From Gammaproteobacteria bacterium (lineage in GTDB: Bacteria; Pseudomonadota; Gammaproteobacteria; Steroidobacterales; Steroidobacteraceae), in the NCBI GenBank assembly GCA_025350055.1, contig JANXYK010000001.1, positions 62,001 to 126,000 of the forward strand: a stretch of 64,000 bases of DNA. Direction: 5' to 3'. This document shows positions 13,591 to 24,478 of this stretch, piece after piece (the first letter of the stretch is position 1; every line of letters starts with the position of its first letter). A program made the position numbers and the translations under genes. The notes beneath the pieces are model-generated. The model had not been told where the DNA came from. It made no database searches and saw only the letters and a list, made by a program, of their open reading frames with translations.

Positions 13591-13635
13591 GGCGGCCGGT
13601 GCCTTGAGCGTCAGGGCAGCGGCCGCCCTTTTTTT
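13590..13635 (+). terminator. Intrinsic terminator, expression platform of the glycine riboswitch
   Basis: GGGCGGCC (13590-13597) pairs perfectly with GGCCGCCC (13621-13628), followed by seven T residues (13629-13635). The 5' arm begins at the last base of aptamer 2, the arrangement used by ON-type glycine switches. Readthrough enters gcvT 32 bases later. Confidence 0.9.
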
Positions 13636-13667: not shown

Positions 13668-14771
13668 TTGGGACTGAAAACGCCGCTGTTTGATCTGCAT
13701 GTCGCCCTCGGCGGCCATATGGTCGATTTCGGTGGCTGGGATCTGCCAGTGAACTACGGTTCGCAGATCGAGGAACACCAGGCGGTGCGCCGCAGCGCGG
13801 GCGTGTTCGATGTCTCGCACATGTGCGTGATCGATCTGGTGGGTGCGCGCGTGCGTGAATTCCTGCGCTACCTGCTCGCCAACGATGTCGCGCGCCTCAG
13901 GTTGCCCGGCAAGGCGCTGTATAGCTGCATGCTGCGCGTGGATGCCGGCATCCTCGATGACCTGATCGTCTATTTTCTGGACGACCAGCATTTCCGCCTG
14001 GTGGTGAATGCCGGTACACGCGACCAGGACCTGGCCTGGATACGCCAGCAGGCCGTGGCCTTCGAGGTTGCGGTCACCGAGCGCAAGGAACTCGCGATGC
14101 TGGCGGTGCAGGGCCCCGAGGCGCGCGCACAGCTCGCGGCGCTGTTGAGCGCAGACGAGGCGGCCGCAGCCCTGCAGCTCGGCGTTTTCAGTGGTGCCGC
14201 CATCGGTGGCTCATGCGGCGCGCATTTCATTGCCCGCACCGGCTATACGGGTGAAGACGGCTTCGAGGTCATGCTCGACGCTGCTGCCGCCGCGTCGCTG
14301 TGGACGCGGCTCAACGAGCGCGGCGTGCAATCCTGCGGGCTCGGTGCGCGCGATACGTTGCGGCTCGAGGCCGGCATGAATCTCTACGGCAGCGACATGA
14401 ACGAGAATTTCCACCCGCTCGAATCAGGCCTGACCTGGACAGTGGCCTTCGAGCCGCGTGAGCGCAACTTCATCGGTCGCTCCAAGCTCGATGCGGTGCT
14501 TGAGTACGGCAGTGAGCGTGCGCTCACCGGCCTGCTGTTGGATGATCGAGCCATCATGCGCGCGCACCAGCGCGTGCTCACGAGCGCGGGCATTGGGGAG
14601 ATCACCAGTGGCAGCTTTGCGCCCAGCCTCGGGCGCTCGGTGGCGCTGGCGCGCGTGCCCACCGCAGTCGCTCTGCCAGGCACACAGGTGCAGGTGGAGG
14701 TGCGCGGCAAGGCGCTGCCGGCGCGCGTGGTGCGCCCGCCCTTCGTGCGCCACGGCAAAGTGCTCGTGTAA
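13668..14771 (+). CDS. gcvT: Aminomethyltransferase, glycine cleavage T protein
   Basis: A 367-residue T protein that transfers the aminomethyl carbon from lipoyl-H protein to tetrahydrofolate, releasing ammonia. Family features: GLKTPLFDLHVALGGHMVDF and GGWDLPVNYGSQIEEH at the N-terminus, FDVSHMC, the folate-binding TGYTGEDGFEVML, and LGARDTLRLEAGMNLYG. The start is a TTG at 13668, preferred because GGGAG lies 8 bases before it and the encoded MGLKTPL matches the usual N-terminus. No alternative in-frame ATG exists. First gene after the glycine riboswitch. Confidence 0.95.
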   Translation: MGLKTPLFDLHVALGGHMVDFGGWDLPVNYGSQIEEHQAVRRSAGVFDVSHMCVIDLVGARVREFLRYLLANDVARLRLPGKALYSCMLRVDAGILDDLIVYFLDDQHFRLVVNAGTRDQDLAWIRQQAVAFEVAVTERKELAMLAVQGPEARAQLAALLSADEAAAALQLGVFSGAAIGGSCGAHFIARTGYTGEDGFEVMLDAAAAASLWTRLNERGVQSCGLGARDTLRLEAGMNLYGSDMNENFHPLESGLTWTVAFEPRERNFIGRSKLDAVLEYGSERALTGLLLDDRAIMRAHQRVLTSAGIGEITSGSFAPSLGRSVALARVPTAVALPGTQVQVEVRGKALPARVVRPPFVRHGKVLV

Positions 14772-14802: not shown

Positions 14803-15192
14803 ATGAGCAATGTACCCGCCGACCTGCATTACGCCCGCAGCCACGAATGGTTGCGCGAGCTGCCCGATGGGAGCGTGGAAATCGGCATCAGCGATCATGC
14901 CCAGCACGCGCTCGGCGACCTGGTGTTCGTCGAGGCGCCGGCAGTTGGTCGCAAGCTCAAGGCGGGCGAAGCCTGTGCCGTGGTCGAATCGGTCAAGGCG
15001 GCATCGGACGTCTACAGCCCCGTGGGCGGCGAAGTGCTGGCGATCAACGATGCGCTGGTGAAGGCACCGGAACTGATCAACCAGGATCCTTACGGTGCGG
15101 GCTGGATCTGGCGCCTGCGTCCCGATGGGGCCATTGCTGCCGCCGGATTGCTCGATGCGAACACCTACTCTGCCGTAGCGGAAGCGGGCTGA
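14803..15192 (+). CDS. gcvH: Glycine cleavage H protein (lipoyl carrier)
   Basis: A 129-residue H protein that carries the aminomethyl group on lipoamide between the P, T and L proteins. The lipoylated lysine is in ESVKAASDVYSPV (Lys65). YARSHEWLRELPDGSVEIGI and DHAQHALGDLVFVE are standard N-terminal features. CAGGAG precedes the ATG. It sits 31 bp after gcvT and 30 bp before gcvPA. A lipoate ligase/synthase and L protein are not in the window. Confidence 0.95.
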   Translation: MSNVPADLHYARSHEWLRELPDGSVEIGISDHAQHALGDLVFVEAPAVGRKLKAGEACAVVESVKAASDVYSPVGGEVLAINDALVKAPELINQDPYGAGWIWRLRPDGAIAAAGLLDANTYSAVAEAG

Positions 15193-15222: not shown

Positions 15223-16592
<1,370 letters not shown>

Positions 16593-16596
<4 letters not shown>

Positions 16597-18083
16597 GCCT
16601 CGATCTGTGCGAAGCGCTGATTTACGACTATGGTTGTCCGGGGCGTGGTGCGCACAGTCAGTGGCCGGCCGCCGAGGCCGCGCCGCCGGCGATCCCTGCG
16701 GCCCTGAAGCGCAAACAGCGCGCAGCGCTTCCCGAAGTGAGCGAGCTCGATGCGCTGCGCCACTACACGCGCCTCTCGCAGCTGAATTTTTCCATCGACA
16801 CGCATTTTTATCCGCTCGGCTCCTGCACGATGAAATACAACCCGCGCGCCTGCAATGCCGCGGCGATGCTGCCGGAATTCCTCGGCCGTCATCCGCTGGC
16901 CAGCGCGCGCCACAGCCAGGGGTTCCTCTCGTGCATGTACGAGCTGCAGGAGATGCTGCAGGAAGTCACCGGCATGCAGGGCGTGGCGCTCACGCCGATG
17001 GCCGGCGCGCACGGCGAATTCGCCGGCGTGGCGATGATCCGCGCCTACCACCGCGCGCGCGGTGATTTGAAGCGCAACGAGATCATCGTGCCGGCCGCGG
17101 CGCATGGCACGAATCCGGCCACCGCCACCATGTGCGGTTGCGTGGCGCGCGAAGTGGCCGTGGGTGCCGATGGCGACGTCGATATCCAGGCCCTGCGTGC
17201 CGCGGTCGGGCCGCAGACCGCCGGCATCATGTTGACCAATCCCTCGACGCTGGGTGTGTTCGAGCGACGCATCGAAGAGGTCGCGCAGATCGTGCACGAT
17301 GCCGGTGGCCTGCTGTACTACGACGGCGCCAACCTCAATGCGATCCTCGGCAAGGTGCGGCCGGGCGACATGGGTTTCGATGTGATCCACATGAACCTGC
17401 ACAAGACCTTCTCGACGCCGCACGGCGGTGGTGGTCCGGGCGCGGGCGCGGTGGGCGTAGGGCCGCGCCTGCTGCCGCTGCTGCCGCAGCCGATCGTCAC
17501 GCGCACGGTGGAGGAGGGCCAGCCGCACTATCGCTGGCTGGACGCGCACGATCTGCCGCTATCGATCGGCCGGCTGGCGGGTTTCATGGGCAACGCCGGC
17601 GTGCTGCTGCGCGCCTACGTGTACATGCGCATGCTGGGCCGCGCCGGCATGAGCCGGGTGGGCGAATTCGCGACGCTGAATTCCAACTACCTGCACAAAC
17701 GCCTGCAGCAGGCCGGTTTCACGGCCGCCTATCCGCAGCGTCGCGCCAGCCACGAGTTCATCCTGACCTTGAAGCCGCAGCTGCAGGAGCTGGGCGTGAG
17801 CGCCATGGATGTGGCCAAGCGGCTGCTCGATTTTGGATTCCACGCGCCAACTACTTATTTTCCGCAGCTGGTGCCAGAATGCCTGCTGATCGAGCCGACC
17901 GAGACCGAGAGCAAAGAGACCCTGGATGCCTTCGTCGCAGCCATGAGCGAAGTATTGCGCGAAGCGGCCAGCACGCCTGAAGTCCTGCGCACGGCGCCGC
18001 ATCGCATGCCGGTGCGCCGCCTCGATGATGTGCGCGCGGCCCGCGAGCTCGACCTGGCGCATCGCCCCGCGGTCCTGGGCTAG
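16593..18083 (+). CDS. gcvPB: Glycine dehydrogenase (decarboxylating) subunit 2
   Basis: A 496-residue beta chain of the split P protein, carrying the PLP lysine in [20 protein letters not shown]. Other conserved parts: [14 protein letters not shown] near residue 70, NPATATMCG, and [14 protein letters not shown]. The C-terminus has [10 protein letters not shown] and [20 protein letters not shown]. It completes the glycine cleavage P component with GcvPA. Only 4 bp separate its stop from dgkA. Confidence 0.95.
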
Positions 18084-18087
18084 TACC

Positions 18088-18459
18088 ATGCAAATCGCCC
18101 GCGACAAGCCGCGCGGCTTCACGCGCCTGTTCAAAGCCTTTGGCGCCAGCTGGAAGGGATTGCAGGGTGCATTCCGCGAAGAAGCCGCGTTCCGCCAGGA
18201 ACTGGGCTTCGCTGCAATCGCCGTGCCATTGGGCCTGTGGCTGGGGCACAGCGGCATCGAGCGCGCGCTGCTGGTCGCGCCGGTATTTCTGGTGCTGATC
18301 GTCGAGTTGCTCAACAGCGCCATCGAGGCCACGGTCGATCGCATCGGTCTCGAGCGTCATGTGTTGGCGGGGCTCGCTAAGGATATCGGCTCAGCGGCAG
18401 TGCTCATGTCTTTCGTGCTGCTCACCTGCGTGTGGGCGCTGGTGTTGCTGGGTCGTTGA
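18088..18459 (+). CDS. dgkA: Diacylglycerol kinase (prokaryotic DgkA)
   Basis: A 123-residue, three-helix inner-membrane kinase that phosphorylates diacylglycerol, recycling lipid released by periplasmic glucan and lipoprotein-related reactions. The family hallmark EEAAFRQELGF and the active-site VELLNSAIEATVDRIG are clear, as is the closing AKDIGSAAVLMS. The start at 18088 gives the expected length. It follows gcvPB by 4 bp, an unusual companion for glycine cleavage genes. Confidence 0.94.
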   Translation: MQIARDKPRGFTRLFKAFGASWKGLQGAFREEAAFRQELGFAAIAVPLGLWLGHSGIERALLVAPVFLVLIVELLNSAIEATVDRIGLERHVLAGLAKDIGSAAVLMSFVLLTCVWALVLLGR

Positions 18460-18468
18460 GAGGTTTGC

Positions 18469-19401
18469 ATGACGGCATTGATCTGCGGTTCGCTGGCCTA
18501 TGACACGGTGATGGTCTTCGAAGGCCGCTTTCGCGAGCACATCCTGGCCGATCGGCTGCACATGCTGAACGTGTCTTTCCTCGCGCCGCAGATGCGGCGC
18601 AATTTCGGCGGCTGCGCCGGCAACATCGCCTATAACCTGAAACTGCTGGGTGGCGATGGGCTGATCATGGCAACCGTGGGCCACGACTTCGCGCCTTACG
18701 AGCGCTGGTTGCAGCAGTACGGCATAGCGCTGCACGGCGTGCGGCGCATCGAGGCGGAATTCACCGCGCAGGCGTACATCACCACCGATCTCGACGACAA
18801 CCAGATCACGGCCTTTCATCCCGGCGCGATGAACCACGCGCACCTGAATCGCGTCAGCGATGTGACGGGCATCAAGCTCGGCGTGGTGGCGCCCGATGGC
18901 CGCCAGGCGATGATCGAGCATGCTGCGCAGTTCAGCGCCGCCGGCATTCCCTTCCTGTTCGATCCCGGCCAGGGCCTGCCGATGTTCGATGGCGAGGCGC
19001 TGCGCGCCTTCATCGCGCAGGCGACCTGGGTGGCAGTGAATGACTACGAGGCCAGCCTGCTGGCCGAGCGCACCGGCTGGTCGCACGAGGAGATTGCCAG
19101 TCGCGTCGAGGCGCTGATCATCACCCGCGGTGGCGATGGCTCCTGGATCTACGCCGCGGGGGCGCGTCACGACATTCCGCCTGCGAAGCCGGCACGCATC
19201 GCTGATCCGACCGGATGCGGTGATGCCTACCGCGCCGGTCTCCTGTTCGGTCTGCAGAGCAAACGTGACTGGCCAGCCACAGGGCGCATCGCCTCACTGG
19301 CCGGCGCCATCAAGATCGAGAAGCACGGCACGCAGCAGCACAGCTACGACTGGGCCGGCTTCGCCGCGCGCTTTCACGACAATTTCGGACACGCACCATG
19401 A
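18469..19401 (+). CDS. PfkB-family carbohydrate/nucleoside kinase
   Basis: A 310-residue ribokinase-fold kinase. The N-terminal strand MTALICGSLAYDTVM, the substrate loop NFGGCAGNIAYNLKLLGG, and the C-terminal PfkB signature DPTGCGDAYRAGLL with catalytic Asp in GCGD are present. It belongs to a proteobacterial PfkB group often labelled adenosine kinase, but the substrate is not established by sequence. It starts 9 bp after dgkA and its stop overlaps the following protease gene by 4 bp. Confidence 0.85.
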   Translation: MTALICGSLAYDTVMVFEGRFREHILADRLHMLNVSFLAPQMRRNFGGCAGNIAYNLKLLGGDGLIMATVGHDFAPYERWLQQYGIALHGVRRIEAEFTAQAYITTDLDDNQITAFHPGAMNHAHLNRVSDVTGIKLGVVAPDGRQAMIEHAAQFSAAGIPFLFDPGQGLPMFDGEALRAFIAQATWVAVNDYEASLLAERTGWSHEEIASRVEALIITRGGDGSWIYAAGARHDIPPAKPARIADPTGCGDAYRAGLLFGLQSKRDWPATGRIASLAGAIKIEKHGTQQHSYDWAGFAARFHDNFGHAP

Positions 19402-22292
19402 ACACCAGCCGATTCCCGTCCCTGTGCGCGTTGGCGCTGGCTGCGCTGTGGAGCGGACTCGCACTCGAGGCTGCCGCCGCAGGCAACAAGGCTGCCGGCA
19501 ACGGCAAGTCGCCGGCCGCAATCGCAGCTGTCGCTGCCGCAGCGCCTGCCGAACCGGCGCCGCCGGCCGACTGGGCGCGCACGCTCGAGCGCATCGCCAG
19601 CAGCGTGGTCACGATCGAGATCGACCAGACGCGCTCCTTCGACACCGAGCGCAACACCAGTGCGCAGGCCACCGGCTTCGTGGTAGATGCGCAGCGCGGC
19701 TTGATCCTCACCAATCGCCATGTGGTCACGCCGGGGCCGGTCACGGCTGAAGCCACCTTCCTCAATCGCGAGGAAGTACAGCTCTATCCCGTGTATCGCG
19801 ATCCGGTGCACGACTTCGGCCTGTATCGCTACGACCCGGCCAAGCTGCGCTTCATCAAGCCGCAGGCGCTGCCGCTGGCGCCCGAGGCGGCGCAGGTGGG
19901 GCGCGAGATTCGCGTGGTCGGCAACAACGCGGGCGAACAGCTCTCGATCCTCGCCGGCACGCTGGCGCGACTCGATCGCGAAGCGCCGGAATATGGCATT
20001 GGGCGCTACAACGACTTCAACACCTTCTACATCCAGGCGGCGTCCGGCACTTCGGGCGGGTCCTCCGGTTCGCCGGTGATCGATGTGCAGGGGCGGGTGG
20101 TGGCGCTGAACGCGGGTGGCGCGAGCGGCGCAGCCTCGAGCTTTTATCTGCCGCTGGGGCGCGTGCAGCGCGCGCTGCGCTTGATCCAGCAGGGTCTGCC
20201 GGTAGCACGCGGCACGCTCGAGACCGAGTTCCGTTATCGACCCTACGATGAACTGCGGCGCCTGGGGCTGCACACTGAAACCGAGGCGGCCGCGCGCGCG
20301 GCCAAGCCCGACAACACCGGCATGCTGGTGGTGGAGAACGTGCAGCCCGGTTCCGCGAGCGATGCACAGCTTTCCCCGGGCGACATCCTGGTGCGCCTCA
20401 ACGGCGTGGCGCTCACCGGCTTCGAGCCGCTCGAGACCGTGCTCGATGAATCGGTGGGCAAGAGCGTGACGCTGGAGCTCGAGCGCGGCGGCCAACCCTA
20501 CAGCGCGCACCTGCAGGTGGAAGACCTGCATGCGATCACGCCAGCGAGTTACCTCGAGACCGGCGACGCGGTATTGCACACGCTTTCTTACCAGGAAGCG
20601 CGGCATTTCCATCTGCCGATACGCGGCGTGTTCGTTGCCGCCTCGGGCTACAGCTTCGACGCTGCGGGCGTACCCCGCGGCGCCGTGATCACGGAACTCA
20701 ATTCGCACCCGGTGAATACTCTGGAAGATTTCGAAGCCGGCATCGCCACCTTGAGCGATGGCGTGCGCGTCAGCGTGCGCTACGTGACGCTCGATGATCC
20801 CAACCGCAGTGAGCTGCGCTCGGTGCACATGGACCGGCGCTGGTTCCCCTCGCGCCACTGCCAGCGCAACGACGTGTCGGGCGTGTGGGATTGCCACGAG
20901 CTGCCGGCCGTGACCAGCGTGGCGGCGCCGCAAGGCGGCTCGGCGCGCTATCCGCAGGGGCGCGATCGCATCCTCAGCGAGCTGATGCCCTCGCTCGTGG
21001 GCATCACCTTCGACATGCCCTATTCGGTTTCCGGGGTCACCGAGCGCAACTACCACGGCACGGGCCTGATCCTCGATACCGCGCGCGGTCTGGTGATCAC
21101 CGATCGCAACACGGTGCCGGTCTCGATCGGCGATGTGCGCCTCACCTTCGCCGGCACGCTGGAGATTCCCGGGCACGTGCTGTACGTGCACCCGCTCCAC
21201 AACCTGACAGTGATCCAGTATGACCCGGCGTTGATCGATGCCACGCCGGTGCGCGCCGCCACTCTCGACACCGAGCCCATGCGGGCGGGCGAGGCGCTGA
21301 GCGTGGTCGGGCTGGACAACAGCGGCGATGTGAAAGAGCGCGCCACCGCCGTTGCCGAAGTGGATCCGCTGTTGTTGCCGCTGTCGCGCTCGGTCGCGTT
21401 CCGCGACAGCAATATCGAAGTGGCGACGGTACTGAATCCACCCGAAGACGTGGTGGGTGTACTGGCCGACAAGGCCGGCAAGGTGCGTGGCCTGTGGGCC
21501 AGCTTCGCCACCGACAACGGTCGCGAGCTGGTGCAGGAGAGCCGCGGCGTGCCCTCGGATCTCGTGGCCGAGACGCTAGCCATCGTGCGCCGCGCGGCGC
21601 CCCTGCATTCACTGGAAGCAGAACTGGTCACGCAAACGCTGGCCAGCGCCCGCGGCCTGGGATTGAGCGATGCCTGGGTGGCACGCATCCAGGGCAGCAA
21701 CCAGGCGCAGCGCCAGGTGCTGAGCGTGGCGCGGCTGATCGGTGGTTCGGATGCGGCGCGCGCGCTGCAGACCGGTGACATCCTGCTGGCGATCGACGGC
21801 AAGGTGGTCACCCAGTTTCGCGACGTGGAGCGCGCCACCAAGGATCGCGACACCGTCGCGGTCACGGTCTGGCGCACCGATGGCGAGCACACCGAGAACG
21901 TGCGCACCGCTGCCCTGAGCGGCAGCGACATCGACCGCGTGGTGCAGTGGGCGGGCGCTACCCTGCAGGCGCCGCACCGCGCCATCAGCGCGCAGCGCGG
22001 CATCGAACCCAAGGGTGTGTACGTCGCCTGGTTCGCCTATGGCTCGCCTGCCAGCCGCTTTGGCCTGTTGCCCGGGCGTCGTATCGTCGAGGTCGATGGC
22101 CAGCCTACGCCAGACCTCGACGCGTTCCTGAAGCTGGCGGGTGGCCATGCCGATCGCTCCTCACTGCGCATCAAGACGCTGGCCTGGAATGGCTCGCCCG
22201 AGATGATCACGCTGAAGCTCGACCGGCACTACTGGCCAGCCTACGAGCTGCGGCGCACGGCCACGGGTTGGGAGCGGTTGCCGCTCGAATAG
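19398..22292 (+). CDS. Nma111p-like duplicated trypsin/PDZ serine protease
   Basis: A 964-residue exported HtrA-type protein with a signal peptide (about residues 1-28) and an Ala/Pro linker. The first protease domain (about 60-265) has an intact triad: His108 in TNRHVVTPGP, Asp139 in YRDPVHDFGLYRYDP, and Ser223 in GGSSGSPV. PDZ-like segments follow (about 300-400). A second, degenerate protease domain (about 540-720) has Asn at the His site (TDRNTV) and at the Asp site (HPLHNLTVIQYDP). More PDZ-like regions end with GVYVAWFAYGSPASRFGL and HYWPAYEL. This order and these motifs match fungal Nma111p. Substrate unknown; periplasmic by signal peptide. Confidence 0.88.
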   Translation: MNTSRFPSLCALALAALWSGLALEAAAAGNKAAGNGKSPAAIAAVAAAAPAEPAPPADWARTLERIASSVVTIEIDQTRSFDTERNTSAQATGFVVDAQRGLILTNRHVVTPGPVTAEATFLNREEVQLYPVYRDPVHDFGLYRYDPAKLRFIKPQALPLAPEAAQVGREIRVVGNNAGEQLSILAGTLARLDREAPEYGIGRYNDFNTFYIQAASGTSGGSSGSPVIDVQGRVVALNAGGASGAASSFYLPLGRVQRALRLIQQGLPVARGTLETEFRYRPYDELRRLGLHTETEAAARAAKPDNTGMLVVENVQPGSASDAQLSPGDILVRLNGVALTGFEPLETVLDESVGKSVTLELERGGQPYSAHLQVEDLHAITPASYLETGDAVLHTLSYQEARHFHLPIRGVFVAASGYSFDAAGVPRGAVITELNSHPVNTLEDFEAGIATLSDGVRVSVRYVTLDDPNRSELRSVHMDRRWFPSRHCQRNDVSGVWDCHELPAVTSVAAPQGGSARYPQGRDRILSELMPSLVGITFDMPYSVSGVTERNYHGTGLILDTARGLVITDRNTVPVSIGDVRLTFAGTLEIPGHVLYVHPLHNLTVIQYDPALIDATPVRAATLDTEPMRAGEALSVVGLDNSGDVKERATAVAEVDPLLLPLSRSVAFRDSNIEVATVLNPPEDVVGVLADKAGKVRGLWASFATDNGRELVQESRGVPSDLVAETLAIVRRAAPLHSLEAELVTQTLASARGLGLSDAWVARIQGSNQAQRQVLSVARLIGGSDAARALQTGDILLAIDGKVVTQFRDVERATKDRDTVAVTVWRTDGEHTENVRTAALSGSDIDRVVQWAGATLQAPHRAISAQRGIEPKGVYVAWFAYGSPASRFGLLPGRRIVEVDGQPTPDLDAFLKLAGGHADRSSLRIKTLAWNGSPEMITLKLDRHYWPAYELRRTATGWERLPLE

Positions 22293-22316: not shown

Positions 22317-23321
22317 ATGGCCAAGGCCATCCGCGCCACTCAGATCGAGCTGGACAGCGCCGTGCAGGCGCTGCGCGACGGCGACGTGGTCGCGTTTCCG
22401 ACCGAGACCGTCTACGGACTCGGCGCCAACGCGCAGCACGCGAGCGCGTTGCAAAAGATCTATACGCTCAAGGGTCGCCCAACCACACATCCGCTGATCG
22501 TGCATCTGGACAGCGCGCGCTTCCTGCATCGCTGGGCGCGCGAGGTGCCGACCGCGGCGCAGCGCCTCGCCGAGCGCTTCTGGCCGGGGCCGCTGACGCT
22601 GGTATTGCCAAAGGCCGATGGCGTGCTGGATCTCGTCACCGGCGGCCAGGACAGCATCGCACTGCGCGTGCCCGCGCACCCGATGGCGCAGCAGCTGCTC
22701 ACGGCCTTTGGCGGCGGCATCGCCGCACCCTCGGCGAATCGCTACGGCCATGTGAGCGCGACGCGTGCCGAGCATGTGCGTGAGGAGTTCGGCGTGGCGG
22801 TGCGCGTGGTGCTCGATGGCGGCGAGTGCAAGGTCGGGCTCGAGTCCACGATTGTGGCCTGCCTCGATGGCAGCGTGCGCCTGCTGCGGCCCGGCGCGAT
22901 AACGCTCTCGCAGCTGCGCGAGGCGGTGGGCGAGGTGCACAGCGGTGCCGTCGCGGATTCCCCGCGCACGCCCGGTTCCACGCGTGCGCACTATGCGCCG
23001 AGCACGCCGCTGCGGCTGGTGGCGGAGGGGCAGTTCGAACGAGAGGTCGCGCTGCTCGCGGCCGCCGGCCAGCGCATCGGCGTGCTGGCGCAGCGCCCGC
23101 CGCTGGGCAGCTACCCGCATGTCACCTGGATCAACGGCGGCTCGCGCCCTGATGCCTACGGCCACGATTTGTATGCTCACCTGCGCACGCTCGATCACGC
23201 CGGCGCCAGCTGCCTGCTGGTGCAGGAAGTGCCGCGCGATGAGCGTTGGGATGCCATACGCGATCGCCTGACGCGTGCGGCTGCTGCAACGCTGGATTCC
23301 GAAACTGGAGAAATGCCCTGA
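22317..23321 (+). CDS. tsaC: L-threonylcarbamoyladenylate synthase (TsaC/Sua5 type)
   Basis: A 334-residue enzyme that makes threonylcarbamoyl-AMP for the t6A37 modification of ANN-reading tRNAs. The YrdC domain (about 1-210) shows VVAFPTETVYGLGANA, KIYTLKGRPTTHPL and the C-terminal APSANRYGHVSATRA. A PGSTRAHYAPSTPL linker leads to the extra Sua5 domain (about 225-325), so this is the long Sua5 form and not the short E. coli TsaC. It begins 24 bp after the protease gene and its stop overlaps the next start by one base. Confidence 0.93.
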   Translation: MAKAIRATQIELDSAVQALRDGDVVAFPTETVYGLGANAQHASALQKIYTLKGRPTTHPLIVHLDSARFLHRWAREVPTAAQRLAERFWPGPLTLVLPKADGVLDLVTGGQDSIALRVPAHPMAQQLLTAFGGGIAAPSANRYGHVSATRAEHVREEFGVAVRVVLDGGECKVGLESTIVACLDGSVRLLRPGAITLSQLREAVGEVHSGAVADSPRTPGSTRAHYAPSTPLRLVAEGQFEREVALLAAAGQRIGVLAQRPPLGSYPHVTWINGGSRPDAYGHDLYAHLRTLDHAGASCLLVQEVPRDERWDAIRDRLTRAAAATLDSETGEMP

Positions 23322-24478
23322 TGGCGTCCAAAGCGATCGATCCATTCGAGCCGGCGCAGATCCGCCGCCTGGTGGCCGAATTCGGCTCGCCGCTCCTGAT
23401 CCTCGATTGCGCGCGCGTGCGTGCGCAGTACCGGAAGCTCCGCAAGGCGCTGCCGGGTGTCGATCTGCACTATGCGCTCAAGCCGCTGCCGCACAGCGCC
23501 GTCGTGCGCACCATCATCGATGAGGGCGGGTGGCTGGATCTGGCCACCAGCGGTGAAGTGCAGCTCGTGGCCGGCATGAAGATCGACCCGGCGCTTTGCA
23601 TCCACACGCATCCGATCAAGCGCGACAGCGATATCCGCAACGCGCTCGCTTACGGCGTGCGCGTGTTCGTGGCCGACAATCCCGATGAAGTGCGCAAGTT
23701 CCGGCCCTATGCCGGCAAGGTCAAGTTGCTGTTGCGCGTGTCGTTCCGCTCTCCAGGGGCGGTCTGCGACCTGTCACGCAAATTCGGTTGCGACCCCGAG
23801 GATGCGCTGGCGCTCGCGCGCCTGGCTGCGGAACTGGGCGTGCAGGTGCGGGGCTTTTCCTTTCACGTCGGCTCGCAGTCGGCCGATGCCCTCAAGCATG
23901 TCGAGGCGATCGAGACCTGCGTGCGGTTGCTTGCTGCTGCGCGGCGCGAGCGACTCGGCGCATTCGACACGCTCGACATTGGCGGCGGCTTTCCGATCGA
24001 GTACGCGCAGCGCGCACCCGACATCGGCCGCTTCTGCGCGCCGATCCGCAAGGCGCTGGCGAAACTGCCGCGGCGCGTGCGCGTGATTGCCGAGCCCGGC
24101 CGCTACATCGCCGGCCCTGCAGCGATCGGCGTGGCGACCGTCATGGGCCGCGCACGGCGCGAGGGCCACTGGTGGTACTACCTCGATGACGGCCTGTACG
24201 GTTCCTACAGCGGTCAGCTCTACGATCACGCACGCTATCCGGTCGAGGCGCTGCGAGAAGGGCCGCTGCTGCCCGCGGTGCTGGCAGGACCCACCTGCGA
24301 CAGCATCGATGTGATCGCCGAGAACATGATGCTGCCAGAGCTGCGCGCCGGCGACCTGATCGTCGGCCGCGCGATGGGTGCCTACACGGTGGCCAGCGCC
24401 TCGGAGTTTAATTTCTTCCCGAAGGCGACGGTGGTGGCGGTCAATCGCCGCGCGGGCGACGGCGGCGGCGTCGAGTAG
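23321..24478 (+). CDS. Fold-type III PLP decarboxylase (ornithine/lysine-type)
   Basis: A 385-residue alanine-racemase-fold decarboxylase. The PLP lysine is in LHYALKPLPHS (near residue 50), phosphate-binding and substrate parts are FHVGSQSAD and DTLDIGGGFPIEY, and the C-terminal catalytic Cys is in LAGPTCDSIDVI. Family members decarboxylate ornithine, lysine or diaminopimelate-like substrates to polyamines. The start overlaps tsaC by one base. A second member of the family lies behind kdpE at 55.6 kb. Substrate cannot be fixed by eye. Confidence 0.85.
   Translation: MASKAIDPFEPAQIRRLVAEFGSPLLILDCARVRAQYRKLRKALPGVDLHYALKPLPHSAVVRTIIDEGGWLDLATSGEVQLVAGMKIDPALCIHTHPIKRDSDIRNALAYGVRVFVADNPDEVRKFRPYAGKVKLLLRVSFRSPGAVCDLSRKFGCDPEDALALARLAAELGVQVRGFSFHVGSQSADALKHVEAIETCVRLLAAARRERLGAFDTLDIGGGFPIEYAQRAPDIGRFCAPIRKALAKLPRRVRVIAEPGRYIAGPAAIGVATVMGRARREGHWWYYLDDGLYGSYSGQLYDHARYPVEALREGPLLPAVLAGPTCDSIDVIAENMMLPELRAGDLIVGRAMGAYTVASASEFNFFPKATVVAVNRRAGDGGGVE

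Follow-up and report, generated by a model that had tools for sequence, protein, structure and literature searches.

A probably exported bacterial two-unit HtrA-type protease with a degenerate second unit, often found behind glycine cleavage genes

Described two-unit HtrA proteases

In yeast, Nma111p (Ynm3) carries two HtrA units in a single chain. A gene for a bacterial protein of this layout is the subject here. It lies in a stretch of 64,000 nucleotides (the window) from a gammaproteobacterium of the Steroidobacteraceae (assembly GCA_025350055.1, contig JANXYK010000001.1, positions 62,001 to 126,000 of the forward strand), in which an open reading frame for 964 residues, with an ATG start, occupies 19398-22292 on the plus strand. 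The counterpart in plants is Arabidopsis Deg7 (At3g03380), a clade III plant Deg of about 1000 residues. Passages on it give the order protease domain-PDZ-PDZ-inactive protease domain-PDZ-PDZ, an intact first and a degenerate second catalytic triad, a proposed origin by gene duplication and fusion, and a reported role of the inactive protease domain in trimerisation (PMC3473262, PMC4754418). The same passages treat bacterial relatives in general terms, and in the literature searched no paper on a bacterial two-unit HtrA was found. Nma111p is nuclear according to a passage of PMC11596484. A passage of PMC5982838 places the PDZ_1 domain in fungal HtrA/Omi proteases and not in the mammalian branch, and mentions bacterial proteins that resemble the yeast protein more than the human one.

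With Deg7, which was compared by description only, the window protein has in common the six-domain order, a length of about 1000 residues and the combination of an intact first with a degenerate second triad. Deg7 is, however, stromal, whereas the window protein probably begins with a signal peptide, has an invariant pair of cysteines between its units and is encoded in a bacterial operon. From Nma111p it differs in being probably exported rather than nuclear. DegP, DegQ and DegS share with it the HtrA protease fold and PDZ domains, and are among its best solved matches, but they are single units (the solved chains listed have at most 480 residues) and lack the second, dead unit. The protein belongs to the known Nma111/Deg7 kind, as a bacterial variant that is probably exported and is common in one order.

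Two HtrA units in one chain

Pfam, hhalign and structure models together show a single chain, about 1000 residues long, built as protease-PDZ-PDZ-inactive protease-PDZ-PDZ (Table 1). In both units a trypsin-like protease domain is followed by PDZ, which by fold comparison is the HtrA fold of the PA clan. The Pfam scan found Trypsin_2 (PF13365, 1.3e-26), PDZ_1 (PF12812, 4e-26) and matches to PDZ_2 and PDZ_6. PDZ_1 reaches 91.3 bits against a cut-off of 28, and it is present above that cut-off in both units, with 68.6 bits at residues 379-454 and 32.2 bits at 846-913. The second protease domain is poorly seen by Pfam: a second Trypsin_2 stretch appears in the window protein only at the E limit of 1, and at E 0.01 three of four other members have one stretch only. 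The case for the second unit therefore rests on profile and fold comparison.

Profiles built from up to 113 family rows align the first half with the second over 423 columns at 23% identity (hhalign probability 100, E 2.2e-39). Taken singly, the two protease domains align over 132 columns, ending before the serine loop (E 3.3e-16), and each PDZ domain of the first unit finds its own counterpart in the second (a with c, b with d; Table 1), the remaining pairings being weak (1e-5 to 9e-4). This domain-by-domain pairing indicates that a whole gene was duplicated and fused. By profile alignment and predicted fold the two-unit layout is far beyond chance; a chance repeat or a pseudogene is ruled out by the open frame and the end-to-end profile match of the halves.

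An AlphaFold model of the full length has a predicted local distance difference test score (pLDDT) of 86.5 and a predicted template modelling score (pTM) of 0.82; for the second half modelled alone the values are 91.7 and 0.91. Compared with solved structures, the full model matches the HtrA family, mainly over residues 50-477, with Deg8 at Z 25.5 (root-mean-square deviation (rmsd) 4.1, 293 residues aligned). The second-half model matches 8kic (Z 23.4, rmsd 5.1, 287 aligned) and Mycobacterium tuberculosis HtrA, 7w4s (Z 23.0, rmsd 3.8, 273 aligned). Among the sequence-search matches listed (the best 60 of 177 and the best 60 of 108) there is no solved two-unit HtrA structure.

NCBIfam groups the protein with HtrA proteases, but its scores fall well short of the curated cut-offs for Do, DegP, DegQ and DegS. 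For the Do family (TIGR02037), whose members have a single HtrA unit, the score is 127.6 bits against a cut-off of 416.2, and the protein has two units. Score and second unit together exclude an ordinary DegP.

Intact first triad and dead second unit

In the family alignment of 113 rows (among which L015 repeats L061 in shorter form) the first-unit triad is nearly fixed: Asp139 and Ser223 stand in every row and His108 in 112, the single departure being a row with a broken N-terminus (L011). The second unit is different. At its His site there is Asn in 102 rows, Asp in five, Ser in three, Thr in two, Ala in one and His in none; at its Asp site there is Asn in 109 and Asp in four. The serine loop is absent from the stretch aligned to it (its place being taken from the hhalign comparison of the halves), and a short, usually Pro-containing stretch stands there instead. 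Strings of the form GxSA or GxSG, some of them GDSG, do occur in the second unit of 24 rows, all at 710-719 and so at least 25 residues past the serine-loop place. Among these, GDSG lies near residue 711 of the window protein's numbering in L094, L095, L102 and L118, distant from the serine-loop position. The GDSG strings are probably due to chance.

An earlier note on this DNA, made from its letters, had described two HtrA-like units in one 964-residue protein, the first with an intact triad at His108, Asp139 and Ser223, the second with Asn at the His and Asp sites and its serine loop gone. The open frame, the alignment of the halves, the fold of the second half and the family counts all agree with that description. 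Two outcomes that the note had counted against itself, placement by profile search among ordinary single-unit DegP proteins and a structure without a second protease-like fold, did not come about: the scores lie far from the Do cut-off, and the modelled second unit has the HtrA fold. The four motifs it had singled out are located at residues 133-140 (YRDPVHDF), 220-226 (GGSSGSP), 881-890 (YGSPASRFGL) and 944-951 (HYWPAYEL).

Likeness to Nma111p

For a comparison with yeast, an Nma111p sequence was used that had not been verified against a database and was set down after bacterial members had been seen; what follows from it is a lead and not a test. This unverified sequence shows two stretches of Trypsin_2 and two of PDZ_1. 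Its PDZ_1 score of 191.9 bits, as against 80 to 100 for five bacterial proteins, argues that it is not a mere echo of the latter. With the window protein it aligns over 923 columns (36% identity, E 0.0); for the best of the genome's other HtrA proteins the figures are 28% over 301 columns. Arg stands at its second His site, and Tyr in place of both inter-unit cysteines. In a tree of 17 proteins, each split in halves, N-terminal and C-terminal halves separate with support of 100/100, and the unverified yeast halves fall one in each group, on a very long branch. [Eleven of 18 loci from outlying genomes of the class were tried for this tree; L153, L154, L162 and L165 gave no usable protein and were left out.] If the yeast sequence is right, the duplication would predate the split between the yeast and bacterial proteins. 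The likeness to Nma111p that the earlier note had drawn from the motifs is supported by the layout and by PDZ_1 above cut-off in both units, though Deg7 serves as a model no less well.

Export and the cysteine pair

Export, which had also been claimed, is likely: in 106 of the 113 rows Trp59 has a hydrophobic stretch ahead of it. The seven others include L006, cut at a contig end, and the broken L011, and the remainder may have misjudged starts. Five rows, representing four genes and including Colwellia and the genome G066, have a lipobox-like motif; in the Colwellia-like group the N-termini of L061 and L072 carry a lipobox-like signal, LTSC, and these copies, to judge by that motif, may be lipoproteins.

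Between the units Cys488, Cys499, Trp482 and Trp497 are invariant in all 113 rows, and after Trp59 there is no further cysteine in 106 rows. In the model the two cysteines stand on opposite strands (486-491 and 496-501) of a predicted inter-unit hairpin, and from this geometry and their conservation a disulfide between them is likely. A conserved pair of this sort, with its likely disulfide, fits export to the periplasm.

Distribution

The earlier note had called a periplasmic version in a glycine-controlled operon unusual and had suggested a search of bacterial genomes for the two-unit form. That search found the protein to be common in its order: of 148 genomes sampled, 137 have a match, and in 133 a single match spans 907 or more of the 948 model positions. 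Among near relatives, the window's own genome counted, 58 of 60 have it, some copies being in pieces; G025 and G048, which do not have it, give weak matches of the kind that other HtrA proteins give. In a sample of the class it is present in 25 of 369 genomes, five of which are accounted for by the window genome and others of its order. A single-genome oddity is excluded by this spread across relatives and order. Among the best 80 of at least 372 matches of a genome scan, relatives come from Steroidobacteraceae, Woeseiaceae, Peristeroidobacter and Natronospiraceae, from Colwellia, Thalassotalea and Catenovulum, and from many unclassified gammaproteobacterial metagenome-assembled genomes. No plasmid matched the protein at E 1e-30.

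PDZ_1 (PF12812) itself is found in 69 of 299 genomes of a phylum sample at E 0.001 and above its cut-off in 15. Scores over 60 bits are confined to the window genome and G066; the other 13 genomes have the domain in reading frames of 474-561 residues, the size of DegP.

One match among the best 80 of the genome scan carries the label of another phylum. A genome labelled Actinobacteria (G703) has, on a 7.2 kb contig (L151), a protein 66% identical to that of the window. In an Actinobacteria sample centred on it only G703 itself matched (1 of 246), the other 245 genomes giving none. The shortness of the contig and the high identity suggest that it is probably misbinned.

The glycine operon

In the window the protease gene comes after glycine cleavage (gcv) genes headed by a glycine riboswitch, and the glycine-controlled operon of the earlier note holds in so far as it consists of the aptamer (RF00504) and these genes (Table 1). 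Linkage was counted in 82 distinct loci for which 4 kb or more of upstream DNA was available. Same-strand gcv genes lie upstream of the protease in 69 of them; the 13 that lack the linkage include L061, L073 and L089 of the Colwellia-like group. dgkA was detected upstream in 27 of the 82 and pfkB in 23, but a short divergent DgkA may escape tblastn. gcvPB is upstream in 71 loci, in 38 of which neither dgkA nor pfkB was detected and 137-423 bp separate the matched stretches. The general picture, in most loci examined, is a riboswitch-gcvT-H-PA-PB block and then, often close, the protease. Downstream, a Sua5-type gene is present in 40 of 101 loci.

In linked loci chosen for having gcvT well inside the fetched DNA, Rfam found the riboswitch in 10 of 10 and in 8 of 10; in further linked loci it was found in two of seven, making 20 of 27 with the chosen ones. 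As the protease lies behind the gcv genes, often with a riboswitch in front, its transcription probably rises with glycine. In the literature searched no report of an HtrA gene in a gcv operon was found.

Between the aptamer and gcvT there is a terminator-like hairpin with a T run; the region has seven terminator-like sites against 4.8 (standard deviation 2.2) in shuffles, and the scan alone is weak. Beyond the Sua5-type gene, window positions 23321-24478 encode a pyridoxal phosphate-dependent decarboxylase like diaminopimelate decarboxylase (184 bits against a LysA cut-off of 297.9). In genome G025 a DUF72 gene (PF01904; L177, 6020-7090) sits in the slot between pfkB and the Sua5-type gene.

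Table 1. Features of the protease gene and its neighbourhood in the window
Feature	Coordinates	Strand	Basis
Glycine riboswitch aptamer RF00504	13379..13490	+	46.1 bits, gathering 32
Terminator-like hairpin with T run, between aptamer and gcvT	13613..13629	+	Hairpin scan
gcvT	13668..14771	+	TIGR00528 399.9 bits, above cut-off
gcvH	14803..15192	+	TIGR00527 145.2 bits, above cut-off
gcvPA	15223..16596	+	NF001696 607.8 bits, above cut-off
gcvPB	16593..18083	+	NF003346 701 bits, above cut-off
dgkA, diacylglycerol kinase	18088..18459	+	PF01219 1.8e-33
pfkB-family kinase	18469..19401	+	PF00294 9.6e-37
Two-unit HtrA-type protease gene, 964 residues	19398..22292	+	Open reading frame and Pfam; ATGA overlap with stop of pfkB-type gene
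Likely signal peptide, residues 1-28	19398..19481	+	Cleavage site by eye; hydrophobic 11-mer before Trp59 in 106/113 family rows
Unit 1 protease domain, residues 57-262, intact triad	19566..20183	+	Trypsin_2 91-237; VIA-align Z 25.5 to Deg8, model residues 51-403
His108, catalytic by homology	19719..19721	+	Family alignment
Asp139, catalytic by homology	19812..19814	+	Family alignment
Ser223, catalytic by homology	20064..20066	+	Family alignment
PDZ domain a, residues 268-376	20199..20525	+	PDZ_6 and PDZ_2 matches
PDZ_1-type domain b, residues 377-480	20526..20837	+	PF12812 match 379-454
Inter-unit beta hairpin: Cys488, Cys499 (disulfide proposed), Trp482, Trp497	20841..20900	+	Invariant 113/113; strands 486-491, 496-501 in model
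Unit 2 dead protease domain, residues 518-732	20949..21593	+	hhalign to unit 1 protease domain; fold of second-half model
Asn571 at catalytic His site	21108..21110	+	Family alignment, hhalign
Asn602 at catalytic Asp site	21201..21203	+	Family alignment, hhalign
PDZ domain c, residues 733-840, counterpart of a	21594..21917	+	hhalign a/c E 2.5e-20
PDZ_1-type domain d, residues 841-964, counterpart of b	21918..22289	+	PF12812 846-913; hhalign b/d E 1.5e-13
L-threonylcarbamoyladenylate synthase (Sua5/TsaC type), downstream of protease	22317..23321	+	TIGR00057 193.8 bits, above cut-off

Proposed mechanism and its alternatives

The interpretation for which there is good, though not compelling, reason is that the gene product is a serine protease of the Nma111/Deg7 type, exported and independent of ATP, with an active first unit, a dead organising second unit and probable glycine-linked transcription. 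Sequence and models show that a whole HtrA gene (protease, PDZ and PDZ_1) became duplicated in tandem and fused, that the triad survived in the first unit, and that the second gave up every catalytic residue of its three without losing the fold. The first unit would cut misfolded envelope proteins in the periplasm, and exposed peptide ends would be held by the PDZ domains. The dead unit, on the model of Deg7, may hold the oligomer together and present substrates, acting as a built-in partner subunit; such a role as organiser of trimer or substrate, which the earlier note had raised, is plausible by analogy. The Cys488-Cys499 hairpin, probably with its disulfide, would brace the joint between the units.

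Several points weigh against this. The signal peptide is called from hydrophobicity only. Six further Trypsin_2 loci are present in the source genome, and some may be able to do the same job; no experiment on a bacterial member was found in the literature searched. Five of the seven further linked loci gave no riboswitch match, though the DNA fetched for some of them may be too short. Among 17 class outliers whose upstream DNA was long enough, three are linked to gcv genes and 14 are not near them. In genus g12 none of four sampled genomes has the protease, and G025, of that genus, keeps riboswitch, gcvT, gcvPA, gcvPB, dgkA, pfkB, Sua5-type gene and the next gene round a slot empty of it. The link between operon and protease is therefore not obligatory.

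These last observations bear on whether the position in the gcv operon is inherited gene order and nothing else, with no functional tie to glycine, a question on which the balance is even. The operon without protease in G025 and the unlinked outliers favour simple inheritance, as does the Sua5-type gene, which likewise stays downstream in many loci. The greater frequency of gcv genes upstream than of dgkA or pfkB speaks the other way, with the reservation already made for divergent DgkA.

It is possible, though doubtful, that the dead unit is chiefly a substrate-binding or allosteric regulatory module and that oligomers form through the first unit, as in DegP. Trp59, which stands just ahead of the first helix of that unit and presumably near the place of an aromatic trimer contact in human HtrA1, is conserved in 111 of 113 rows and would suit such an arrangement. 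The trimerisation reported, in the passages on Deg7, for its inactive domain (PMC3473262, PMC4754418) argues for the organising role instead. That the protein is an ordinary DegP/DegQ-type quality-control protease with a decayed, functionless second copy is very unlikely: the lost triad and the faster divergence of the second protease domain (mean identity over sampled pairs 0.544, against 0.744 for the first, with the poor rows L006, L011 and L041 excluded) are what decay would give, but 133 of 148 order genomes keep a near-whole single match, the second half is predicted with high confidence, Asn571 and Asn602 are nearly fixed and the DegP-type models lie far from their cut-offs.

Excess glycine weakens bacterial cell walls. 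On that ground, as a hypothesis, glycine cleavage might usefully be joined with quality control of the envelope. A bolder and improbable extension is that glycine cleavage, the periplasmic two-unit HtrA and, in some species, the envelope lipid enzyme DgkA form a glycine-sensing operon, switched on by the riboswitch as glycine accumulates, that protects the envelope against glycine damage, and that Nma111p and Deg7 go back to a bacterial gene of this sort, which had its duplication and its dead half before it moved from the periplasm to nucleus and chloroplast.

Significance

A bacterial clade in which the dead half is fixed, in a protein that is probably exported, offers a simple system for asking what a dead HtrA unit is for. 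The existence of the two-unit form in bacteria bears on the origin of Nma111p and Deg7, and its frequent location behind glycine cleavage genes suggests a connection, open to testing, of glycine with quality control in the envelope.

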